Below are positions 14,335 to 24,457 of a stretch of 24,457 nt of DNA, piece by piece. Where the stretch lies: positions 1 through 24,457 of IMG/VR virus record IMGVR_UViG_3300028925_003923. One strand, given 5' to 3'. The notes beneath the pieces are model-generated. The model was not told the origin of the DNA and searched no databases. It saw only the letters and a program-made list of their open reading frames with translations. The DNA comes from a virus. The position numbers and the translations under genes were made by a program. The stretch's first letter is position 1. Each line of letters opens with the position of its first letter.

Positions 14335-15018
14335 ATGATGGCCAAGTATAATCTTATAGGCGTCGGAACCAATGCGAAGACAATCAAGGGTGACGGGAGC
14401 GAATACCTAACGGGTATCCTATACCTTATCCCTGAGTTAGAACTATGTCCGTTCTCTGTCATAGCAGGGTGCTTTGAACCTTGCCTAGTCTCAGCGGGTC
14501 GCGGCGCTTTCAATAGTGTACACGCGTCACGGGAACGGAAAACTAAATTACTACTCACTGACCCGGAAGAATTCAAGCGGCTCCTGCGTCAAGACCTAAC
14601 CAAGTTCTCGGGGACTTGCTCCCGTAAAGGTGTGCAGCCTGTCATCCGACTCAATGGCACGTCGGACAAGTCATGGCTGGATATCATCCGGGAATTCCCG
14701 GCTATTCAGTTCTACGATTATACTAAGGTATTTAACCGGGTGGCCAAGGACCTCCCAAGTAACTATCACCTCACTTTGTCCTACTCCGGAGCCAACCCAG
14801 ACTATGCCCGGAACGTGCAGGCCTTTGCCGATAAGTACCAGGCAAATCTAGCGGTAGTCTTCCGGGATAAAAACAAAATCCCGCATACATACCTGGGCCG
14901 CCCCGTGATCAACGGAGATGCGGATGACCTCCGTTTCCTGGACCCTGCTGGTGTGGTGGTTGCACTATATGCCAAGGGTAAAGGAAAGAAAGATACCTCC
15001 GGGTTTGTGCAAGGTTAA
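14335..15018 (+). CDS. Conserved phage protein with Cys cluster (DUF7227-like), unknown
   Basis: A 227-residue protein of a family I recognise from many phages, where it is uncharacterised; the label DUF7227 is from memory. Conserved features: VGTNAKTIKGD near the start, CPFSVIAGCFEPCLVSAGRG (C38, C46, C50), RLNGTSD (105-111), FYDYTK (126-131), and the long GRPVINGDADDLRFLDP (188-204) followed by KGKGKKDTSGFV. The alternation of strands and loops resembles a TIM-barrel, and three close Cys suggest a metal or iron-sulfur site; both are inferences. The start is ATG at 14335 or 14338, with AAAGG 6-9 bases upstream. It is the first rightward gene, so early expression is likely. Base composition matches the CCGG-rich island rather than the replication genes. 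Confidence 0.75.
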   Translation: MMAKYNLIGVGTNAKTIKGDGSEYLTGILYLIPELELCPFSVIAGCFEPCLVSAGRGAFNSVHASRERKTKLLLTDPEEFKRLLRQDLTKFSGTCSRKGVQPVIRLNGTSDKSWLDIIREFPAIQFYDYTKVFNRVAKDLPSNYHLTLSYSGANPDYARNVQAFADKYQANLAVVFRDKNKIPHTYLGRPVINGDADDLRFLDPAGVVVALYAKGKGKKDTSGFVQG

Positions 15019-15022
15019 GAAT

Positions 15023-15175
15023 ATGCAATCACTTTATAAATGTAACACTTGCACGCGCCCAGCGGTGGTGTTAGTACACAAGGCATATACGTGCTATCAG
15101 TGCTGGGCAAAGGTGGAGGCAAGCCGACCGCCTGTGCTTATACTTAACAAACCAGTGAAGGAAACAGAACAATGA
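15023..15175 (+). CDS. Small four-Cys zinc-ribbon protein
   Basis: A 50-residue protein. C7-N-T-C10 and C24-Y-Q-C27 form a treble-clef or ribbon-type zinc site, followed by a polar tail. It starts 4 bases after the previous stop (AAGG 9 bases upstream) and its stop overlaps the next ATG (ATGA), so it is translated as part of the operon. Small zinc ribbons of this kind in phages are often nucleic-acid or host-protein binders; the partner is unknown. I rejected an upstream in-frame start at 14918 because it would overlap the preceding gene by 100 bases. Confidence 0.6.
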   Translation: MQSLYKCNTCTRPAVVLVHKAYTCYQCWAKVEASRPPVLILNKPVKETEQ

Positions 15176-17611: not shown

Positions 17612-17794
17612 ATGTTTAAAAAAAGCATATCACTGTCAGACATCTTTAGAATGACAGACCTGATGAAGGATATAAGTATTAACAAGTATTCGCAAGAAGA
17701 GTACAGACAAATACTTAACGAGATCATGTATATATCTATCACTGATTATGACTCAGAGGAGATACAAAATGAACATCTTTTTTCTCCATCCTGA
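17612..17794 (+). CDS. Small helical protein, unknown
   Basis: A 60-residue protein, MFKKSISLSDIFRMTDLMKD at its start, helical and mixed-charge. AAAGGAA lies about 12 bases upstream. Its last 26 bases overlap the start of the next gene and hold that gene's AGAGGAG site, so translation may be coupled. Not recognised. Confidence 0.45.
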   Translation: MFKKSISLSDIFRMTDLMKDISINKYSQEEYRQILNEIMYISITDYDSEEIQNEHLFSPS

Positions 17795-18365
17795 CCCGCT
17801 CACAGCGGCAGAGATGCACTGTGACAAGCACTGCGTCAAGATGATACTGGAGACAGCACAGATGCTCTGCACTGCTCACCGTGTGCTAGACGGTGACACC
17901 GTGGCAGACCAGGAAGGTATGTACAAGACTGCCCACCTGAACCACCCCTCTACCAAGTGGGTCAGGGGATCACCCCTACAGTACAAGTGGACCTATGACC
18001 TGTTCAAGTTTCTCTGTGATGAATACACAAAGAGGTATGACAAGGTACACCTGACAGATAAAAAGTTCAGAGAAATACTGAGCACACCTCCTTTTAATAT
18101 AAACTATTTGGTCACCGTGAACCCATCCATTTGGGCAGAGTACACACAGCCACCACAGTGTATGCCTGACCAGTACAAGGTACCAGGTGATGCGGTCAAG
18201 GCCTACCGGGACTACTACATAGGGGAGAAGGCATCCTTTGCCAAGTGGGCTTACTCACCTACACCTACCTGGTTCACCACGGGTACAACTGCACAGGTGC
18301 GACAATATACGGGGTTGACAAGGGGTAATTTTGATGATAGTAGCTATGCTACAGGGGGGATATGA
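17769..18365 (+). CDS. Conserved phage protein with ILETAQML signature, unknown
   Basis: A 198-residue protein of a family seen in many T4-like and marine phages. It begins MNIFFLHPDPLTAAEMHCDKH and continues KMILETAQMLCTAHR (24-38). It also has NHPSTKWVRGSPLQYKWTYDL (within 58-78), DEYTKRYDKVH and a C-terminal AYRDYYIGEKASFAKWAY (145-162). Relatives are usually hypothetical; I recall some labelled pyrimidine-dimer glycosylase, but I see nothing here that proves a DNA-repair activity. The ATG at 17769 has an ideal AGAGGAG 7 bases upstream, preferred to an earlier in-frame ATG at 17748. Six Cys and several His leave metal binding open. Confidence 0.65.
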   Translation: MNIFFLHPDPLTAAEMHCDKHCVKMILETAQMLCTAHRVLDGDTVADQEGMYKTAHLNHPSTKWVRGSPLQYKWTYDLFKFLCDEYTKRYDKVHLTDKKFREILSTPPFNINYLVTVNPSIWAEYTQPPQCMPDQYKVPGDAVKAYRDYYIGEKASFAKWAYSPTPTWFTTGTTAQVRQYTGLTRGNFDDSSYATGGI

Positions 18366-18500: not shown

Positions 18501-20231
18501 ATGTTAGAAGATACTGAACAAGACGAAGCACTGGTGACCCACCAGCATTGCCCTTGCGGTAATAGTTCAGACGCCTTTGCGCTGTACCCTGACGGTCACG
18601 GGTTCTGCTTCTCTCAGGCTTGTAAGAATGAGAAGAAAAGATTTAGAAGGAATGAACTACCAAAGGAGTTACAAGAGATGCTAGAACAGTACGGAGTAGA
18701 TGCTCCTGATAAGGAGGAGGGACCAGAAGAGAATAATGCAGAGGACTTTTCTTCTGGTGTCTCTCTTAGCAAGGGTACCTTTACAGATATTACTAAGAGA
18801 AAAATATCCAAAGAGACCTGCAAACTATTCAACGTCACTGTCAATGTGCAGGACGGTGCAGAACTAGGCCACTACTACCCCTACTATGACAAGGCCGGTA
18901 GCCACGTGGCCAACAAGGTCAGGGGCAGGGCCAAGTCATTCAAGTGGGAAGGATCAGCAAAAGAAACTATTCTCTTTGGTCAACAGGTCTTTGGGTCTTC
19001 CACTGCCAGGGCCGTCACCGTGGTGGAGGGTGAGCTAGATGCGCTCTCCACGTACCAGCTGCTAGGCTCACGCTACCCTGTTGTCTCCATCAAGGGCGGG
19101 GCAGGGAACGCACTGAAGGACTGCAAGAACAACTACAACTTCCTCAACTCCTTCAAGGAGATCGTCATCTGCTTTGACCGTGACGAAAGCGGTACGCAGG
19201 CGGCTAACCAAGTGTCCAAGCTGTTCCCTAATAAGAGCAAGGTGGTCACGCTAGACGAGGGCAAGGACCCTTCCGACTACCTGATGGAGAACCGTTCTGC
19301 TGACTTCACCCGGCGCTGGTACGCAGCGGAGCGGTATACGCCTGCCAACATTGTCAGGGGAGAGGACCTCCTGGACCGCCTGCTTAACCAACCCACCCCT
19401 GACTCACTAGAACTCCCCTGGGAAGCCCTCCAAGACCTGACCTATGGCATCCGAAAGGGAGAGATGTGGACCATCACCAGTGGGGCTGGCATGGGCAAGA
19501 CACAGGTGCTCAGAGAGCTTGCCTTCCACATACAACAGCACACCGAGGATAACATTGGACTCCTCTTCCTGGAGGAACCACTGGAGGACGCTGCCAGGGG
19601 GATGATGAGCCTCTCCGCTGGTAAGCCACTGCACCTGCCCACCACCGAGTACACCCAGAAGGAATGGGACGACTCCTTCCAGGAGACCCTGGGCACAGGG
19701 AGGTACGTGTTCTTTGATTCCTTTGGTTCCAATGACATTGACACCATCATAGACACCATCAAGTATATGTGCCACGCCTGCGGGTGTAAGTATATCTTCC
19801 TGGACCACATCTCCATACTGGTCAGCGATCAGAGCGCAGGCGATGAGCGTAAGGCACTAGACGAGATCGCCACCAAGCTCAAGACCTTGACCATTGAGCT
19901 AGACATATGGCTAGGCATGGTCAGTCATTCCAAGCGCCCAGCAGGTAAGCCACACGAGGAGGGGGGTCAAACCAGTTTGTCAGAGCTCAGAGGGACAGCC
20001 GGAATCGGCCAACTTTCCAATATGGTCATAGGCTTGGAGAGGAATGGACAAGACGCTGACCTGTACCTACGGAACGTCACGCTGATACGTGTACTAAAGA
20101 ACCGTTTCTCTGGGCTCACCGGACCTGCCTGCTACCTGCACTACGACAGGGACACAGGGCGCTTGACACAGATAGACGACCCTGCTACAGATACTGAGGC
20201 AGAGACAGAGGATTTTGACGAGGTACTATGA
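18501..20231 (+). CDS. Primase-helicase (T7 gp4-type)
   Basis: A 576-residue bifunctional replication protein that would lay down primers and unwind DNA ahead of the polymerase. The N-terminal zinc ribbon has C17, C19, C36 and C41 around ALYPDGHGFC. The TOPRIM primase core shows VVEGELDALS (E176) and ICFDRDESG (D226, D228). The C-terminal RecA/DnaB-type helicase has Walker A SGAGMGKT (327-334), Walker B YIFLDH (431-436), the SELRGTAGIGQLSN loop (494-507), and VLKNRFSG (R535), the likely arginine finger. It is slightly larger than T7 gp4A (566) and all key residues are present. The GAGGAC site lies 5 bases before the ATG. Its partner polymerase follows after one tiny gene. Confidence 0.9.
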   Translation: MLEDTEQDEALVTHQHCPCGNSSDAFALYPDGHGFCFSQACKNEKKRFRRNELPKELQEMLEQYGVDAPDKEEGPEENNAEDFSSGVSLSKGTFTDITKRKISKETCKLFNVTVNVQDGAELGHYYPYYDKAGSHVANKVRGRAKSFKWEGSAKETILFGQQVFGSSTARAVTVVEGELDALSTYQLLGSRYPVVSIKGGAGNALKDCKNNYNFLNSFKEIVICFDRDESGTQAANQVSKLFPNKSKVVTLDEGKDPSDYLMENRSADFTRRWYAAERYTPANIVRGEDLLDRLLNQPTPDSLELPWEALQDLTYGIRKGEMWTITSGAGMGKTQVLRELAFHIQQHTEDNIGLLFLEEPLEDAARGMMSLSAGKPLHLPTTEYTQKEWDDSFQETLGTGRYVFFDSFGSNDIDTIIDTIKYMCHACGCKYIFLDHISILVSDQSAGDERKALDEIATKLKTLTIELDIWLGMVSHSKRPAGKPHEEGGQTSLSELRGTAGIGQLSNMVIGLERNGQDADLYLRNVTLIRVLKNRFSGLTGPACYLHYDRDTGRLTQIDDPATDTEAETEDFDEVL

Positions 20232-20329: not shown

Positions 20330-22006
20330 ATGAAGCGCCTATTCCTAGACATAGAGACAGATGGGTTTAACCCTACCCGCATATGGTGCGTGGGTACAGT
20401 AATGGTAGAGGACAACAAGGATGGTACTACAACTGAAACCTCTAAGTTATTCAGCGAGGGAGAAAGAAATCTCTTCACAACTCTTGCGGCACAAGCGGAT
20501 AAAGTTATTGGGCATAACGCTATTCAGTTTGACTTTCGGATACTTGATCTTCTTTGGGGTATACGTTTTGAACCAGAGCAGATGCTCGACACACTGGTCC
20601 TCTCTCAACTTGCAAACCCAGTCAGAGAAGGAGGTCATTCCCTTGAAGCATGGGGTAGGAAGCTCTCTTTCCCAAAGGTAGAGTTTGATCCTTCCCTTTT
20701 CTCCCAAGGGTACACGGAGGAGATGGGGCTGTACTGTATGCAGGACATCAAGCTGACCTGTAAGTTATACAAGGTACTGATCAAAGAACTACACAAGTTC
20801 AGCGGAGATTCCATCAAGCTAGAGCACCGCATCCGCATGATACTAAGTGAACAGGAACTCAACGGCTTTGCCCTTGACCAGGAGAACGCTTGCATACTGG
20901 TGGCAGAACTGAGCGATGAACTGGTGCAGATAAAGGAAGATATGCAGAAGGTGTTCCCTCCCACCAAGGTACAGATGAAGACCAAGGTGAAGTATATTCC
21001 CTTCAACCCAGGGTCACGTAAGCAGGTGGGAGAGCGACTGATGGAGAAGGGTTGGGTACCAGTGAAGAAGACTGACCTGGGTACCCCCGTGCTAGACGAG
21101 GGCGTGCTCTCTAAGATTGACATGGAAGAGGCACAGATAGTTGGAAGGTACATGATGCTCCAGAAGAGGATCGCACAGATTAACTCTTGGATAGACGCCG
21201 TTCACCCCCTGACAGGGAGGGTACACGGTAAGGTACTGACCCTTAGAACTATCACAGGGCGCATGGCGCACGCATCTCCTAACATGGCCCAGGTGCCAGC
21301 TGTCTACTCACCCTACGGGGAGGAGTGCAGGAGCCTATGGGTACCATCCAACGCAAGGAAGCAGAATCTTGTGGGAATAGATGCATCCTCCATTGAACTC
21401 AGGATGCTGTGCCACTACATGAACGATCCAGAGTACACAGAGATCGTGGTCTCCGGTGACATACACACAGCTAACCAAGAGAGAGCAGGTCTAAGCTCGC
21501 GCTCCCAAGCAAAAACATTTATCTATGCATTTCTCTACGGGGCCGGTGCTGCCAAGATAGGGAGCATAGTGGAGGGTAGTGCCCAGGCCGGACAGGCACT
21601 GATAGATAATTTTCTAGAGGCTACCCCGGCCCTGAACAGAGAAAGGCAGCGGGTTATCCTACTGGCAGAGAAAGACGGGGTACTCAGGGGCCTCGACGGT
21701 AGGCTACTGTGGATCAGGTCACCGCACGCTGCACTTAACACCCTGTTACAGGGAGCCGCAGCAGTGGTGATGAAGAGAGCACTCCTAATCTTTCACAAGG
21801 AGTTGGCGGCTTCGCCTTGTGCAGGGAAGGCAAAGTTTGTTGCAAATGTTCACGACGAGTGGCAGTTAGAGGTTGACAAGCCCTTGTCAGATATGGTAGG
21901 TACTATGGGAATAGATAGTATCAAGCAAGCAGGAGAATACTACAAATTAAAATGCCCACTGGGAGGCGAGTACAACGTAGGTTCCAACTGGGCAGAGACA
22001 CACTAA
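20330..22006 (+). CDS. DNA polymerase I family A, with 3'-5' exonuclease
   Basis: A 558-residue replicative polymerase. The exonuclease domain has DIETDG (D7, E9), GHNAIQFDF (N63, D68) and YCMQD (Y135, D139), so proofreading should be active. The polymerase domain has motif A VGIDASSIELR (D351), motif B RSQAKTFIYAFLYG (R391, K395, Y399, Y403) and motif C ANVHDEWQ (H508, D509, E510). No 5'-3' exonuclease domain is attached. The residue equivalent to E. coli Phe762 is Y399, as in T7 polymerase. It is shorter than T7 gp5 (704), lacking most of the inserted loops. A GC hairpin repeat (21805-21816) encodes part of LAASPCAGK just before motif C. Confidence 0.92.
   Translation: MKRLFLDIETDGFNPTRIWCVGTVMVEDNKDGTTTETSKLFSEGERNLFTTLAAQADKVIGHNAIQFDFRILDLLWGIRFEPEQMLDTLVLSQLANPVREGGHSLEAWGRKLSFPKVEFDPSLFSQGYTEEMGLYCMQDIKLTCKLYKVLIKELHKFSGDSIKLEHRIRMILSEQELNGFALDQENACILVAELSDELVQIKEDMQKVFPPTKVQMKTKVKYIPFNPGSRKQVGERLMEKGWVPVKKTDLGTPVLDEGVLSKIDMEEAQIVGRYMMLQKRIAQINSWIDAVHPLTGRVHGKVLTLRTITGRMAHASPNMAQVPAVYSPYGEECRSLWVPSNARKQNLVGIDASSIELRMLCHYMNDPEYTEIVVSGDIHTANQERAGLSSRSQAKTFIYAFLYGAGAAKIGSIVEGSAQAGQALIDNFLEATPALNRERQRVILLAEKDGVLRGLDGRLLWIRSPHAALNTLLQGAAAVVMKRALLIFHKELAASPCAGKAKFVANVHDEWQLEVDKPLSDMVGTMGIDSIKQAGEYYKLKCPLGGEYNVGSNWAETH
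21805..21820. repeat. Dispersed GC hairpin repeat, copy 2
   Basis: GGCGGCTTCGCCTTGT; GGCG and CGCC form a 4-bp stem around GCTT. It shares 15 bases with 10053-10067 and is in frame within the polymerase gene, before motif C. Confidence 0.6.
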
Positions 22007-23059: not shown

Positions 23060-23908
23060 ATGACAGGTAGCAAGATTAGTTCTCTTCTGGTGGACATCAA
23101 CAATCGTTTAGAAGAGGGTACGGGACCAGACAAGGCTAATCTTGCTACCTTTCTGGAAGAAATAAAGGAGGTGATGGAGAACTTTTTTGAAGAAGATGTT
23201 AACCGTGACAACAGAGGTAAGCTAAGACTATCAGCTGTTGGAAAGGAGGACAGGAAGCTCTGGTACGATTACCACGGGTACGATAAGGAACCTCTGGGCA
23301 CAGATACAAGGATCAAGTTCTGCTTTGGTAATCTGCTAGAGGCTTTCGTTCTCCTCCTTGTCAAAGAGGCAGGGCACAAGGTGACAGAGTGTCAGAAAGA
23401 AGTGACAGTGGGTAGTGTCAAGGGTCACATAGACTGTCTGATAGACGGGGAGTTAGTAGATGTTAAGTCTGCCTCACCGTATGGGTTTAAAAAGTTTAAG
23501 GACGGGAGCATTCTCAAGGGTGACGATCCCTTTGGTTACATGTACCAGCTAAGTTCCTACGGTAAAGCATTGAAGAAAAAGATAGGGTACTTCTTGTCCA
23601 TTGACAAGAGCGGAGGTGGTCTCAACCTACTAGAGGTACCACTGGACAGGGTGGACCCGGTGCAAAGAATAGGGTACCTGAAAGAGATCATGCCCCATGA
23701 ACTACCACCTTCCAGGTGCTACTCAGAGGTAACAGAGTCATCAGGTAATAGAAAGCTAGGCTTCAACTGTAAGTACTGCGACTTCAAGTCAAAGTGCTGG
23801 GAAGATTCTAATAATGGTCAAGGTCTCAGGAAGTATAACTATGCCAGAGGACCTGAGTACTTCACGCATGTACAGAGGGAACCCAGAGTAGAGGAGGATT
23901 TCTTTTGA
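23060..23908 (+). CDS. PD-(D/E)XK nuclease, Cas4/RecB-like with putative Fe-S cluster
   Basis: A 282-residue exonuclease-type protein. The active site reads GHIDC (D125), then ELVDVKSAS (D134, K136), with MYQLSSYGKAL (161-171) as the following helix. Upstream FCFGNLLEAF (C88, E94) and near the end CKYCDFKSKC (C237, C240, C246) give the one-plus-three Cys layout (C-x2-C-x5-C at the end) of Cas4 and AddB enzymes that hold a 4Fe-4S cluster; C220 is a further Cys. No helicase domain is attached. It follows the SSB-like gene by 3 bases and would act in end processing or recombination of replicating phage DNA, the role of T7 gp6. It overlaps the next gene by 4 bases. Confidence 0.8.
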   Translation: MTGSKISSLLVDINNRLEEGTGPDKANLATFLEEIKEVMENFFEEDVNRDNRGKLRLSAVGKEDRKLWYDYHGYDKEPLGTDTRIKFCFGNLLEAFVLLLVKEAGHKVTECQKEVTVGSVKGHIDCLIDGELVDVKSASPYGFKKFKDGSILKGDDPFGYMYQLSSYGKALKKKIGYFLSIDKSGGGLNLLEVPLDRVDPVQRIGYLKEIMPHELPPSRCYSEVTESSGNRKLGFNCKYCDFKSKCWEDSNNGQGLRKYNYARGPEYFTHVQREPRVEEDFF

Positions 23909-24457
23909 GCGCCGCACCTAGACCTGACCAGTCTATTATATTATCTTACCAAGAGTGTAAGTTCTGTTCTTCTCACAACGGTTTTGTCTTCTATGACAGC
24001 CACGGTTACTGTTACACTTGTAATGAAGTATGGTTTGGAGAAGACTACGATCAAGCACTGGAGGACATGAACGAAATGCACTGGACTTTTAGAGATGACA
24101 AGACACGGGTCTCTGACCCAGAGGAATACTTTGGTTTTGTTTACCTGATCACCAACAAGAAGAACCAGAGGAAGTACGTGGGGTGTAAGCAGTACTGGCA
24201 GATGCGTCATAGGAAAAGGTATAAGCCTTCCAACTGGAAAGTATACACCTCTTCCTCCAAGGAACTGTGCGCTGACATAGAGAAGATCGGGAAGAGAAAC
24301 TTTAAGTTTGAGATCATACAAGAGTACACGACCAAGCGAGGCCTGCACTACTACGAGCAGTACTACCAGATGAAGCACCATGTGCTCACCGCTGTGCTAG
24401 AGGGAACAGACCAGAAGGAATACTATAACAAGAACGTAGGAGGAGTCAGGTTCTATG
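23905..24457 (+). CDS. GIY-YIG endonuclease with primase-like N-terminal zinc ribbon (partial)
   Basis: 184 codons are visible and the gene is open at the right edge. The start is TTG at 23905, overlapping the previous stop (TTGA), with GGAGGA 6 bases upstream. Residues 18-39 are a zinc ribbon, C18-x2-C21 and C36-x2-C39, around VFYDSHGYC. From about 75 the GIY-YIG nuclease core follows: GFVYLITN (77-84), KYVGCK (90-95), WKVYTSSS, and the metal-binding Glu in HYYEQYYQMKHH (E151). The motif pair is complete. The ribbon closely resembles that of the primase at 18501. Such nucleases in phages are often homing enzymes or DNA-processing factors; the role here is unknown. The gene lies in the replication operon directly after the exonuclease. 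Confidence 0.78.
   Translation, partial: MSAAPRPDQSIILSYQECKFCSSHNGFVFYDSHGYCYTCNEVWFGEDYDQALEDMNEMHWTFRDDKTRVSDPEEYFGFVYLITNKKNQRKYVGCKQYWQMRHRKRYKPSNWKVYTSSSKELCADIEKIGKRNFKFEIIQEYTTKRGLHYYEQYYQMKHHVLTAVLEGTDQKEYYNKNVGGVRFY

Follow-up and report, generated by a model that had tools for sequence, protein, structure and literature searches.

The open reading frame at the right end of the record analysed here, from an uncultured marine phage, joins a primase-type zinc ribbon to a SegE-type GIY-YIG nuclease, and in sister phages the equivalent position beside an exonuclease gene is held by a T7-type endonuclease I. Tentatively, and at somewhat less than an even chance, we read the protein as a resident GIY-YIG nuclease of the replication and recombination module, ribbon-tethered, that occupies the place and probably fills the role of endonuclease I. 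The endonuclease I slot is the most useful new fact in this analysis. We infer zinc binding, contact with single-stranded DNA or a polymerase, and cutting of junctions or of host DNA.

The window, meaning the whole stretch of DNA analysed, covers a virus record of 24,457 bases from end to end, and the nuclease frame (23905..24456, + strand) starts at TTG and runs off its right edge; complete relatives have about 240-439 amino acids and include C-terminal repeats. T7-like replication genes precede it on the same strand: a primase-helicase of the T7 gp4 type (18501..20231, with its ribbon at residues 17-41), a family A DNA polymerase within this replication block (20330..22006) and, directly 5' of the nuclease, a Cas4-like exonuclease (phrog_1990; 23060..23908) that served as anchor for the slot comparison. 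Among named phages, the replication genes are closest to those of the Pelagibacter phages HTVC103P, HTVC104P and HTVC115P (42-47% identity), with the Roseobacter CRP phages as more remote relatives. A gene at 17748-18365 has matches to phrog_624 and, at E 2.4e-6, to pyrimidine dimer DNA glycosylase (PF03013).

The fusion is real and conserved. Its TTG overlaps the exonuclease stop codon (TTGA; stop at 23906-23908) and lies 7 nt after a Shine-Dalgarno-like GGAGG read from the sequence (23893..23897, + strand). Ribbon and nuclease are encoded in one frame at 35 IMG/VR loci, and these relatives begin with TTG, GTG or ATG close to the start position in the window. Computed for 31 distinct sequences, dN/dS has values of 0.073 for the ribbon and 0.088 for the catalytic domain, and purifying selection thus acts on the ribbon. 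A wrongly chosen start codon is ruled out by the homologues that reach the N-terminus, the low dN/dS and the ribosome site. The preliminary description, made from this sequence alone, had called the TTG start and suggested a survey for the same fusion in relatives; the start is upheld, and the fusion recurs at the 35 loci.

The catalytic domain (24082..24438, + strand; residues 60-178) matches PF19835 (SegE_GIY-YIG) over its whole length with E 8e-33 and 113.7 bits against a cutoff of 25, which places it among the SegE-type enzymes; PF01541 also matches the nuclease (E 9e-6). Six residues (G77, Y80, Y91, G93, E151 and N175) are invariant in 26 sequences and R101 is nearly so; with correspondence to I-TevI positions assigned by eye, the tyrosines of the GIY and YIG motifs, the catalytic Glu and the C-terminal Asn are all conserved. 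The best Foldseek match of a full-length AlphaFold model (pLDDT 65) was the I-TevI catalytic domain (E 4e-3), which confirms only that this domain is I-TevI-like. No TOPRIM match was found in the nuclease, so that it lacks the RNA polymerase domain which beside the ribbon would make it a DNA primase. The domain is 36-43% identical to cyanophage and Roseobacter phage members of the T4 SegE (PF19835, phrog_447) family, from which the window nuclease differs by its additional N-terminal ribbon and its fixed position in the replication module.

The ribbon (23920..24039, + strand; residues 6-45) has the four cysteines, C18, C21, C36 and C39, and the motif FVFYDSHGYCY exactly where the preliminary description had placed them. 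These cysteines are invariant among relatives and are putative zinc ligands. A profile of 14 distinct ribbon sequences, searched against the whole PDB (177,635 sequences), ranked T7 gp4 first (1nui and 6n7i; E 0.0023 and 0.0046), and all other matches were at chance level only, from E 0.28 up. T7 gp4 is therefore the sole meaningful match, a relationship beyond that to generic ribbons, and this search rules out a chance resemblance to primase. A tblastn search of 50,697 phage records with the sister ribbon of the L023 type gave 124 records at E <= 0.02 (best E 8e-4), and nearly all of the annotated records among the matches listed were T7-type primases. The proposed primase character of the ribbon is thus supported, and a profile check against primase ribbon families agreed in part: T7 gp4 was recovered from the PDB, but PF08273 (Zn_Ribbon_Prim) matched the ribbon in the records of six relatives at 14.6-20.1 bits, under its 23-bit cutoff, and had no match in the window record. 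Most genuine primases of related records miss this cutoff too. On sequence grounds we therefore call the ribbon primase-type, and not a member of the Pfam family. Searching IMG/VR with the ribbon alone returned nothing besides this nuclease family, and the suggested structure prediction gave a ribbon-only AlphaFold model (pLDDT 55) too poor for fold comparison. A small open reading frame at 14918-15175 has a four-Cys pattern of its own (CNTC...CYQC), which by eye is unrelated to the primase ribbon.

In T7 the ribbon domain contacts the template through S27, F29, D31, H33, F35, Y37, K41 and W42, and it both reads the template and docks on T7 DNA polymerase (PMC10557236); D31 and H33 contact the cryptic cytosine of GTC (PMC12839067). 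When the nuclease ribbon is aligned to T7 gp4 (1nui; PF08273), D31 and H33 correspond to an invariant D and H, and the aromatic contacts F29, F35 and Y37 to Y, Y and Y; a strand ahead of the ribbon is also alike (DQSIILSYQEC against DSVFLYHIPC). The nuclease ribbon differs from its T7 counterpart in that it is one residue shorter, has no adjoining TOPRIM RNA polymerase domain and does not conserve the contacts S27, K41 and W42.

Whether the ribbon was taken from the phage's own primase gene is a separate matter of origin, compatible with any proposed function, and we consider such a capture possible, though somewhat doubtful. The preliminary description had likened the ribbon to that of the primase at 18501 and proposed capture from this neighbouring gene. 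The motif ALYPDGHGFCF is indeed present there, and the two ribbons have SSD-x-F...Y...HG[FY]C[FY] in common, but their cysteine spacing differs, being CX2C...CX2C in the nuclease and CXC...CX4C in the primase. A tree under the simple LG+G4 model unites the nuclease ribbon with the primases of its own lineage (support 96/95), whereas the grouping does not hold in the better, mixture-model tree and no placement is rejected by AU tests (p 0.21-0.61), all on 43 columns. Against a nuclease-ribbon profile the own-lineage primases score 16-23 bits and so do not surpass other T7-type primases, at 18-28; the primase of a group-2 relative scores 28.7. Mean identity of the nuclease ribbon is 30% to own-lineage primases and 34% to other T7-type primases. 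We therefore uphold the primase type of the ribbon and treat its copying from the phage's own primase as no more than a possibility.

The ribbon of the window primase itself (18501-18641) retains D31 and H33, and its CXC...CX4C spacing is common to all near relatives; other T7-type primases have CX2C...CX2C, and the spacing of the own-lineage primases is derived. Annotation of primase ribbons is uneven in public records: in HTVC105P (MH598804.1) the primase annotation starts downstream of the ribbon, in P-SSP2 (NC_016656.1) no CDS covers it, and in Pf17397_F_PD1 (OM131411.1) it lies in a separate small open reading frame ahead of the primase.

Two sets of relatives are without the ribbon, namely the group-2 relatives (L040-L059), which share about 77% identity over the catalytic domain, and about 60 distant and diverse relatives with 48-61% identity. 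The ribbon-less proteins start at a methionine equal to window residue 58 (codon at 24076..24078, + strand), the fusion point. Because some 60 diverse relatives start at this equivalent, the ribbon is a lineage-specific N-terminal addition, and the earlier remark that an N-terminal ribbon is unusual holds within this GIY-YIG family. On a tree of the exonuclease the ribbon-bearing rows form a single branch adjoining group 2, for which one gain is the simplest account; loss of the ribbon in group 2 is a possible alternative. Bacterial genomes yielded one relative only, on a contig of a Sneathiella MAG, and it is also without the ribbon. Group 2 has a further gene, of 168 aa and PD-(D/E)XK-like by eye, that overlaps the GIY-YIG start (L042:7353-7859, with equivalents in L040-L059); it gave no Pfam hit above cutoff and no PDB match, and in L041 a different gene occupies its position (about 1060-1476).

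T7-type endonuclease I (PF05367) is the next nuclease around the exonuclease in sister phages. Among 100 distinct exonuclease-anchored contigs, 55 carry the GIY-YIG gene, 35 carry endonuclease I, none carries both, eight are too short and two have neither; this mutual exclusion is one of contigs and not of complete genomes, and endonuclease I could still be encoded outside them. The two enzymes are unrelated, endonuclease I belonging to the PD-(D/E)XK fold family, and a search with PF05367 had no match in 20 GIY-bearing records (the window and 19 related ones). The likeness suggested by the equivalent slot and the mutual exclusion is one of function. One of the two contigs with neither enzyme has, after a related exonuclease, a recombination endonuclease VII (L179:5186-5788; PF02945, E 2.9e-23), which adds a third type of nuclease for the slot; in the other (L105) the exonuclease shows just 26% identity. 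At the isolate level, HTVC115P has endonuclease I three genes past an exonuclease-like gene, and no nuclease was recognised in the stretch after the exonuclease of HTVC103P. At each of the 63 distant GIY-YIG loci whose upstream sequence reaches far enough, the exonuclease lies directly upstream, and ribonucleotide reductase is also present at 40 of them. Because the nuclease occupies the slot of the junction-cutting enzyme of related phages, it is probably linked to replication and not a stray mobile gene. The exonuclease tree requires at least two switches of nuclease type, with GIY-YIG long retained, which argues for long retention and rare replacement over many independent swaps; with so few independent switches, only about two events underlie the mutual exclusion.

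The gene might instead be an ordinary free-standing SegE-like homing endonuclease that settled behind the exonuclease gene, with the ribbon as one more DNA-binding bead altering its choice of target. We regard this as rather unlikely, although both the SegE family membership and the C-terminal region speak for it. Beyond the edge of the window, where the preliminary description had recommended looking, complete relatives do have repeats of a DNA-binding type in addition to the N-terminal ribbon: a 17-residue unit (..DPEYRKKxSAxxKAxWA..) occurs from one to about 12 times and is followed by a final block that opens with GPYRITFDTG; the array of the window itself is cut by the record end, and this description comes from relatives. 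Homing-endonuclease profiles extend into the repeat region (phrog_314; TIGR01453 under cutoff), and zinc fingers together with recombining repeats are known in the T5orf172 homing endonucleases (PMC10448857). The C-terminal array is also hypervariable. An island about 550-1000 nt after the nuclease start (L006, L012, L013, L014, L023 and others) spans the array and the final block; within it identity falls to 50-72%, with large indels in several locus pairs, between flanks with 93-100% identity ahead of it and 91-100% behind it.

Homing genes usually have a patchy distribution. Here, however, the slot is constant across exonucleases just 40-50% identical, and none of the 100 anchored contigs has an empty slot, leaving out the eight that are too short and the one with the 26%-identical exonuclease; where GIY-YIG is absent, endonuclease I or VII is present. 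Patchy presence, with empty allelic sites in close relatives, was thus not what we found. Several observations nevertheless weigh against the resident, ribbon-tethered reading: homing endonucleases have this catalytic family and such C-terminal repeats, S27, K41 and W42 are not conserved, and the structure models, at the pLDDT values given above for ribbon and full length, are poor. Furthermore, because the array varies sharply between near-identical neighbours, a changing target specificity fits it better than a fixed structural role.

As a resident enzyme of the replication module, the nuclease would cut branched intermediates of replication and recombination, break down host DNA, or do both. 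In this lineage a T7-primase-type ribbon was joined ahead of the ancestral start codon, and most likely it would keep the enzyme at single-stranded priming sites or on the phage polymerase at the fork, with duplex DNA bound by the C-terminal repeats. A bolder and unlikely extension is that this marine phage group has, in its SegE-type GIY-YIG enzymes, a junction-processing nuclease of a third kind, distinct from endonucleases I and VII; in one lineage the primase ribbon would then steer cutting towards the polymerase or the priming sites of the lagging strand and so physically couple priming to debranching. Processing of branched or bridged DNA is described for the GIY-YIG enzymes SLX1 and LEM-3/ANKLE1 (PMC8599992, PMC11975286); these are eukaryotic, have other accessory domains and are likened here by description, not by sequence.

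A close architectural precedent is Odn (Gp88) of phage ICP1, in which a replication-protein DNA-binding domain likewise lies N-terminal to a GIY-YIG-superfamily nuclease and can aim it (PMC8263062). Odn differs in its parts, a RepA_N domain and a T5orf172 nuclease, and is an accessory anti-satellite gene. By this analogy the window protein could be an anti-competitor nuclease that its ribbon or variable C-terminus directs against co-infecting phages or satellites, at their replicating DNA, and a variable C-terminal module between conserved flanks does resemble an arms race. This seems improbable to us: the fixed position in the replication module and the substitution by endonuclease I elsewhere point to a housekeeping role, and the ribbon is conserved, whereas the targeting part of a weapon would be expected to vary.

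Our literature search returned no description of a GIY-YIG nuclease with a primase-type ribbon, and the portion seen of a 2006 survey of the GIY-YIG superfamily does not mention one (PMC1564403). The resident reading offers two testable cases, one of phages that swap unrelated nucleases into one job and one of a primase module reused for steering a nuclease. The slot evidence also suggests resident replication nucleases within a family that carries the label 'NAD synthetase' or homing endonuclease. The former label, widely carried by SegE-type GIY-YIG proteins of phrog_447 (e.g., NC_055826.1 and NC_026923.1), is apparently a propagated misannotation.
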